Made by a program: the position numbers and the translations under genes. The notes under the pieces were generated by a model. It did no database searches, was not told where the DNA came from, and was given only the letters and a program-made list of their open reading frames with translations. DNA of 46,064 bases, from positions 1 to 46,064 of the forward strand of contig JANLHB010000035.1 in the NCBI GenBank assembly GCA_024654625.1, given 5' to 3'. The DNA comes from Patescibacteria group bacterium. GTDB taxonomy: Bacteria > Patescibacteriota > Minisyncoccia > GCA-002772825. Each line of letters starts with the position of its first letter. Position 1 is the first letter of the stretch. Positions 33,194 through 34,026 of this stretch are shown here, one piece after another.

Positions 33194-33523
33194 TTACTGA
33201 AGCTTGAAACGGATAATCTTTACAATCGTATCCGGTCCGACCTTGTCTCCGTAGTATGTTCTGTATGTTTGGTACATCTCTTCTTCGCTTGAAAATTTCT
33301 CATGTCCGTCAAAGTCAGCTTCTTCCAGCTCGCTCATTTTCTTTTCCTATACATCGGTAAGTTTTGCATTGCCAAATATTTCTTTAGTATTCCAATTCAT
33401 AAGATCTATGACATCTCCTTTTTGAAAATTCTTATCATCAAAAAGTCGCCAAGTAAGATCTTTTTCACCGGCTAGAATCAGCTTTGCCAAACTATCTCTA
33501 AACTTGATTACTTTGTTTCCCAT
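33194..33523 (-). pseudogene. ASCH-domain protein split by an in-frame TAG
   Basis: One frame from ATG 33523 to TAA 33194 encodes an ASCH-like domain interrupted once by TAG at 33347-33349. The first part (58 residues) has MGNKVIKFRDSLAKLILAGE and LTWRLFDDKN; the second has MSELEEADFDGHEKFSSEEE and YGDKVGPDTIVKIIRFKL. Together they have the right length and order for a small ASCH protein, a family linked to RNA binding or processing. A second ATG (33337) just past the stop could restart translation of the last 47 residues. TAG is a normal stop elsewhere here (dnaJ, mrdA), so a nonsense mutation or a sequencing error is likelier than recoding. Confidence 0.75.
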
Positions 33524-33620: not shown

Positions 33621-33634
33621 ACTACCGTTCCAAA

Positions 33635-33820
33635 CTGCCGGACTTGGATTGATCCCGCTTTTTCTAATTCATTATATTCATAAGAACGCTGGACGCGCCT
33701 CGCGGTTGTTCGCGCGGGTTTTGCGCTCTCAACATCGCTCCGGCGGTTCGAATCCAATGAAAAGCGCGCAGGCGCTTTTCTAGTCCGGCAGCAAAGCACT
33801 TCGCCTTGCTTCGTCCTTTA
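33635..33820 (-). other. Segment bounded by a copy of the tRNA-Gln 3' end
   Basis: CTGCCGGACTTGGATT at 33635-33650 is identical to the tRNA-Gln 3' end at 33821-33836, and the 10-base inverse AGTCCGGCAG occurs at 33782-33791. Between them lie about 170 bases, relatively G+C-rich, with an AAAAGCGC/GCGCTTTT stem near 33757-33780. The minus-strand frame through it has no recognisable domain, so I do not call a gene. Confidence 0.5.
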
Positions 33821-33891
33821 CTGCCGGACTTGGATTCGAACCAAGATACTCGCCTTCAAAGGGCGATGTCCTACCATTAGACGATCCGGCA
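33821..33891 (-). tRNA. tRNA-Gln (anticodon TTG)
   Basis: The minus strand gives a 71-base cloverleaf: acceptor TGCCGGA/TCCGGCA with U1-A72, D arm with TAATGGTA, anticodon stem TCGCC/GGCGA with loop CTTTGAA (anticodon TTG), and T arm with GGTTCGAATCC. The discriminator is G, as usual for tRNA-Gln. CCA is not encoded. Confidence 0.95.
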
Positions 33892-33990
33892 ATTTATCCG
33901 TATCAAACTTAGTTTGATATCAGGATTCTTAATTTATAACATAATTTTAGCAAAAAACAATTTTTAAATCGCTGAATTCATCAATAATGC

Positions 33991-34026
33991 AATAATGTGC
34001 ATCCGCCGCGGCGGATGCACATTATT
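33991..34026. repeat. 36-base perfect palindrome
   Basis: AATAATGTGCATCCGCCG (33991-34008) is followed at once by its exact reverse complement. No T run follows. It lies in the 283-base gap between tRNA-Gln and the Gmad2 gene, where I otherwise see only the 39-base repeat at 34063-34101 and a short ATCAAACT/AGTTTGAT inverted repeat near 33903. Confidence 0.9.

Follow-up and report, generated by a model that had tools for sequence, protein, structure and literature searches.

A stretch of 46,064 nucleotides from a Patescibacteria group bacterium (hereafter, the window) carries an ASCH-domain gene that is interrupted by one in-frame TAG codon. A single domain runs across this stop, relatives carry intact copies of the gene, and the region that follows the stop is conserved. 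We favor, with moderate confidence, a recent nonsense mutation: a chromosomal ASCH gene of a Patescibacteria-like bacterium would have gained one nonsense codon, and the TAG would be read as a stop, so that translation would yield mainly a fragment of 58 residues that lacks the conserved second half. The gene would then probably be inactive. The fragment itself should be inactive, because the conserved His74-Glu75 pair and Tyr91 follow the stop. This reading takes the TAG to be a real base in the population, as we infer it to be. The finding is ordinary, as it concerns one nonsense codon in a draft genome, in a gene that is dispensable, and it does not point to an unusual genetic code.

The ASCH gene and its in-frame TAG

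Read on the minus strand (33523-33194), the gene consists of an ATG, 57 further codons, the TAG, 50 codons and a TAA. The first 58 codons (33350..33523) bear the counterparts, by numbering, of YqfB Lys21, Thr24 and Arg26; the TAG is codon 59 (33347..33349) and falls in a variable column of the family; codons 60-109 (33197..33346) are still conserved and include the His-Glu pair at 74-75 and Tyr91; and the TAA (33196-33194) comes directly after codon 109. On the plus strand, this interval contains several stops. The initial annotation had described two halves in one frame with only a TAG between them, giving no strand, and this holds on the minus strand. It had also placed an ATG three codons past the TAG; codons 60-62 do intervene, so that the ATG itself is codon 63, the fourth codon after the stop. 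Downstream, and likewise on the minus strand, follows an intact member of the endonuclease/exonuclease/phosphatase family (PF03372, 32422..33183), separated from the ASCH TAA by 10 bases. Since the nearby genes are dnaX-like, obg-like, HD-domain and DNA-alkylation-repair genes, the locus belongs to an ordinary chromosome. The host genome (G000) is a draft of 831,245 bases in 47 contigs with 2.5% contamination, and the ASCH locus is on contig C35.

The arrangement is more than coincidence. When the 109 codons were searched with the stop written as X, the ASCH family PF04266 matched across the TAG with 45.2 bits (curated cut-off, 21.2), and the match covered profile positions 1-101 of 103. Hence, the gene matches the family over its full length and differs from it by the in-frame TAG that interrupts the domain midway. 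Searched on their own, the first 58 codons scored 23.7 bits, and codons 60-109 matched nothing in Pfam or NCBIfam. Since the distal codons have no match of their own, it is the full-length match, together with the homologues, that establishes continuity across the TAG and bears out the earlier view that the distal part is protein-like. We scanned the codon bias around 303 stop codons, each preceded by 50 or more open codons and followed by 40 or more; at 13 of them, the ASCH TAG included, the composition was coding-like on both sides. Six of these 13 sites were translated, and the ASCH TAG was the only one that splits one known domain; the other five look like a gene followed in frame by a second gene or by an unplaced frame.

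The intact protein would be either a YqfB-like amidohydrolase or another ASCH protein, and we classify it as an ASCH protein that resembles YqfB in motif only. According to PMC6972931, Escherichia coli YqfB is an ASCH amidohydrolase for N4-acetylcytidine in which Lys21, Thr24, Arg26 and Glu74 are important. The size is similar to that of the YqfB-type N4-acetylcytidine amidohydrolases covered in PMC6972931 and PMC9599836, and Lys21, Thr24 and Arg26 occur here at identical numbers, but Leu27 takes the place of the Asp that is invariant among YqfB-like proteins. The Lys21/Thr24/Arg26/Asp27 set of the YqfB type is thus broken, by numbering, at position 27, and the YqfB equivalog model of NCBIfam (PRK04980) gave 27.6 bits, well below its cut-off of 93. 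Among 32 relatives, Lys21 and Arg26 are present in all, Thr24 in 26 and Leu27 in 31. The second half also has a conserved His-Glu pair, with His74 in 29 of the 32 relatives and Glu75 in 31 (numbering of this protein), a possible counterpart of His70 and Glu74 of YqfB. Among solved structures the search returned no useful relative (best E value, 0.34).

Stop-free relatives and conservation past the TAG

In a search of the class (E ≤1e-8), 30 of 383 genomes matched, the window's genome included. No internal stop was listed for the other 29, 28 of which extend to the TAG site, and the remaining one stops short of it, cut by a contig end. The best relative is G355, which shares 79% identity over residues 1-109 and is stop-free. 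A smaller search matched 7 of 93 genomes, a tally that includes the window's genome; a TAA was found inside L009, a separate weak match to a 30-residue fragment in G076 that is short of the TAG site. The same-genus genome gave no ASCH match in either search. Of the six loci from a scan of assembled contigs, five are real relatives, and the remaining one, a partial match of 33% identity, was discounted. The named relatives are Patescibacteria, e.g., Kaiserbacteria and Pacebacteria. In an alignment of 32 relatives, from which L007 (which ends before the site) and the weak or partial L008, L009, L015 and L070 were omitted, the TAG column holds 13 different residues and zero stops. Intact copies therefore exist, and the TAG site itself is unconserved. 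The gene is dispensable in the class, to judge from most sampled genomes and the same-genus genome, which are without a match.

Comparison with the 79% relative gave pN 0.077 and pS 0.84 for the second half, versus pN 0.111 and pS 0.59 for the first half. The part past the stop has thus retained its protein sequence while its synonymous sites have diverged strongly. At sites where the outgroups L010 and L011 agree, the window lineage has two unique amino-acid changes before the stop and none after it; by the same rule, the 79% relative has four before and five after. A looser rule, with agreement required of two of three relatives, gave differences in the window at 7 of 46 sites ahead of the stop and at 4 of 44 past it; all four of the latter are common to one relative. 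In a simulation of neutral drift, which is bounded by its 44 sites and simple substitution model, 12.8% of the trials kept the second half unchanged at 0.02 substitutions per site, and at 0.03 this fell to 4.5%. The stop, if real, is therefore recent; the unchanged half is also compatible with a wrong base or with a product that is still expressed. The initial annotation had named independent decay elsewhere in the gene in relatives as evidence that would refute its reading: the gene showed none, and the relatives that cover the site are stop-free.

TAG usage and the missing RF1

In the window's genome TAG is an ordinary terminator. We counted the terminal codons of 207 mechanically called ORFs of at least 150 amino acids, in 13 stretches plus the window (about 301 kb of the 831 kb), and obtained 149 TAA, 39 TAG and 19 TGA, so that TAG closes long ORFs twice as often as TGA. 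Coding-like sequence flanked 3 of 47 TAG, 9 of 139 TAA and 1 of 117 TGA codons, and TAG is therefore not enriched among coding-flanked stops relative to TAA. The search for a suppressor tRNA that had been suggested earlier was carried out, and none of the 36 typed tRNA genes of the assembly has a CTA anticodon. The tRNA-Asn was likewise absent among these 36 genes, from which we conclude that the assembly is incomplete. A literature search for Patescibacteria with amber and stop codon found nothing.

The terminator counts, the coding-flanked stops and the tRNA set all argue against a reassignment of TAG to an amino acid in this genome, aided by loss of RF1, which we regard as extremely improbable. 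The idea was prompted by the missing RF1: searches with TIGR00019 and PF00472 did not find prfA in the assembly, the sole release-factor gene being prfB-like (350.1 bits with the prfB model versus 213.5 bits with prfA), and prfA is present in the same-genus genome. On its face, a missing RF1 would weaken termination at TAG, but the genes that are missing along with it explain its absence better. In relatives, rpmE lies directly before prfA (G001, G003 and G010), rplY lies beyond a peptidase-like gene (the same three genomes), and in G003 and G056 the block consists of rpsB and tsf in the opposite direction, and then rpmE, prfA and the peptidase-like gene. Here the names rpsB, tsf and rplY are our own reading of the sequences, and rpmE is a listed frame in G056 and comes from a PF01197 search in G003. 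Three of these neighbors were not found in the window's genome, namely rpmE (PF01197, which matched in 5 of 9 genomes as a control), rplY (queried with the G001 copy, a search without a positive control of its own) and rpsB (matched in 14 of 14 control genomes). Because the universal ribosomal protein encoded by rpsB cannot be lacking in a living cell, a piece of the genome must be absent from the assembly, and because an absent contig explains the missing block, the absence of RF1 is silent on the genetic code. The peptidase-like neighbor of prfA has a weak match in the window's genome (29% identity over residues 5-240, E value 8.5e-11), which counts somewhat against a missing block and which we take for a paralogue. 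We thus rejected a code reassignment on terminal TAG use, the tRNA set and the missing neighbor block. The case carries a warning, as an internal TAG combined with a missing RF1 mimics code reassignment until the missing neighbors, a universal ribosomal protein among them, reveal the absent contig.

At 300 aa, the prfB-like gene (L046:1480-2382) is short, and its main match begins at position 111 of the prfB model, so that the N-terminal domain is reduced. The window's genome is rated 100% complete, yet prfA, rpmE, rpsB and tRNA-Asn were not found in it. In three other genomes (G016, G047 and G049) the sole release-factor match looks RF2-like, and there is no rpmE match either. Another five class members (G005, G012, G025, G027 and G031) gave one release-factor match each, with an RF1-like score (338 to 386 bits), and none that is RF2-like, a pattern for which missing contigs or a changed TGA are possible explanations.

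Origin of the stop and surroundings of the gene

A recent nonsense mutation has to be weighed against the alternative that the TAG is a consensus error, or the base of a minority strain, in a metagenome-derived assembly, and that the gene is intact. This alternative is rather unlikely in our estimation, although the fragmented and partly contaminated draft speaks for it, as do the intact homologues and the gene itself, in which nothing else is broken and the second half is without decay. Single-base substitution errors are rare in a consensus of good depth, which counts against it, and no other such broken gene occurred among the six translated coding-like stop sites. A wrong consensus base nevertheless fits the data as well as a recent mutation does. 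When the locus was compared with an ordinary nonsense mutation or an error in a draft consensus, the same features were present, i.e., one stop, an otherwise intact conserved gene and stop-free relatives, and no difference was found. Among the three readings offered by the initial annotation, a recent mutation and a wrong base fit all the evidence, and genome-wide readthrough is disfavored, with TAG ending 39 of the 207 ORFs and no CTA anticodon among the 36 tRNAs.

A further alternative is that both halves are made, either by low readthrough of the TAG or by a stop followed by a restart at the ATG of codon 63 (33335..33337, minus strand; TAGGAAAAGAAAATG), which would give a two-piece ASCH protein. 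In this stretch an AGGA precedes the in-frame ATG, a possible restart on the basis of the sequence, and the zero unique amino-acid changes after the stop agree with such a scheme, since a second half that still gives a product should likewise be fully conserved. However, a recent mutation accounts for the same conservation, and Met occupies codon 63 in just 2 of the 32 relatives, which are stop-free, so that this ATG is not a conserved start. The lack of a CTA anticodon among the 36 tRNA genes also argues against readthrough, and the RNA downstream of the stop has an ordinary fold (z -1.20); with Rfam returning tRNA only, an RNA recoding signal was discarded. Synthesis of both halves is accordingly doubtful, whether by weak restart at codon 63 or by low readthrough of the TAG. 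It is more doubtful still, and in our opinion very improbable, that restart at TAGGAAAAGAAAATG yields the ASCH domain in two peptides that function together, so that the second half remains under selection. We therefore retain the recent nonsense mutation as the preferred reading.

A phage or virus origin of the gene was rejected: the only phage match was Natrialba phage PhiCh1, with 34% identity (4 records), and viral contigs gave no relative, with 13 candidate stretches and none confirmed. A tRNA-Gln gene (TTG; 33820..33892, minus strand) lies upstream of the ASCH gene, and the same order is seen in L010 (tRNA-Gln at 2615-2687) and L011 (1392-1464), two of the nearest relatives. The DNA available for 29 other relatives contains no tRNA, and neither does that of L047 and L090, so that a conserved linkage between ASCH and tRNA-Gln is not general and was discarded beyond the window, L010 and L011. 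An exact direct repeat of 17 nt (33634-33650 and 33820-33836, 186 apart) is a copy of the 3′ end of the tRNA-Gln gene, and a 13-nt inverted copy of another part is found at 33745-33757; these repeats could be the scar of an integration at the tRNA. In addition, a perfect 36-nt palindrome (33991-34026) is terminator-like on the plus strand, as is the segment 33574-33615, in which a 14-nt tandem duplication lies beside a 12-pair hairpin with a T run.
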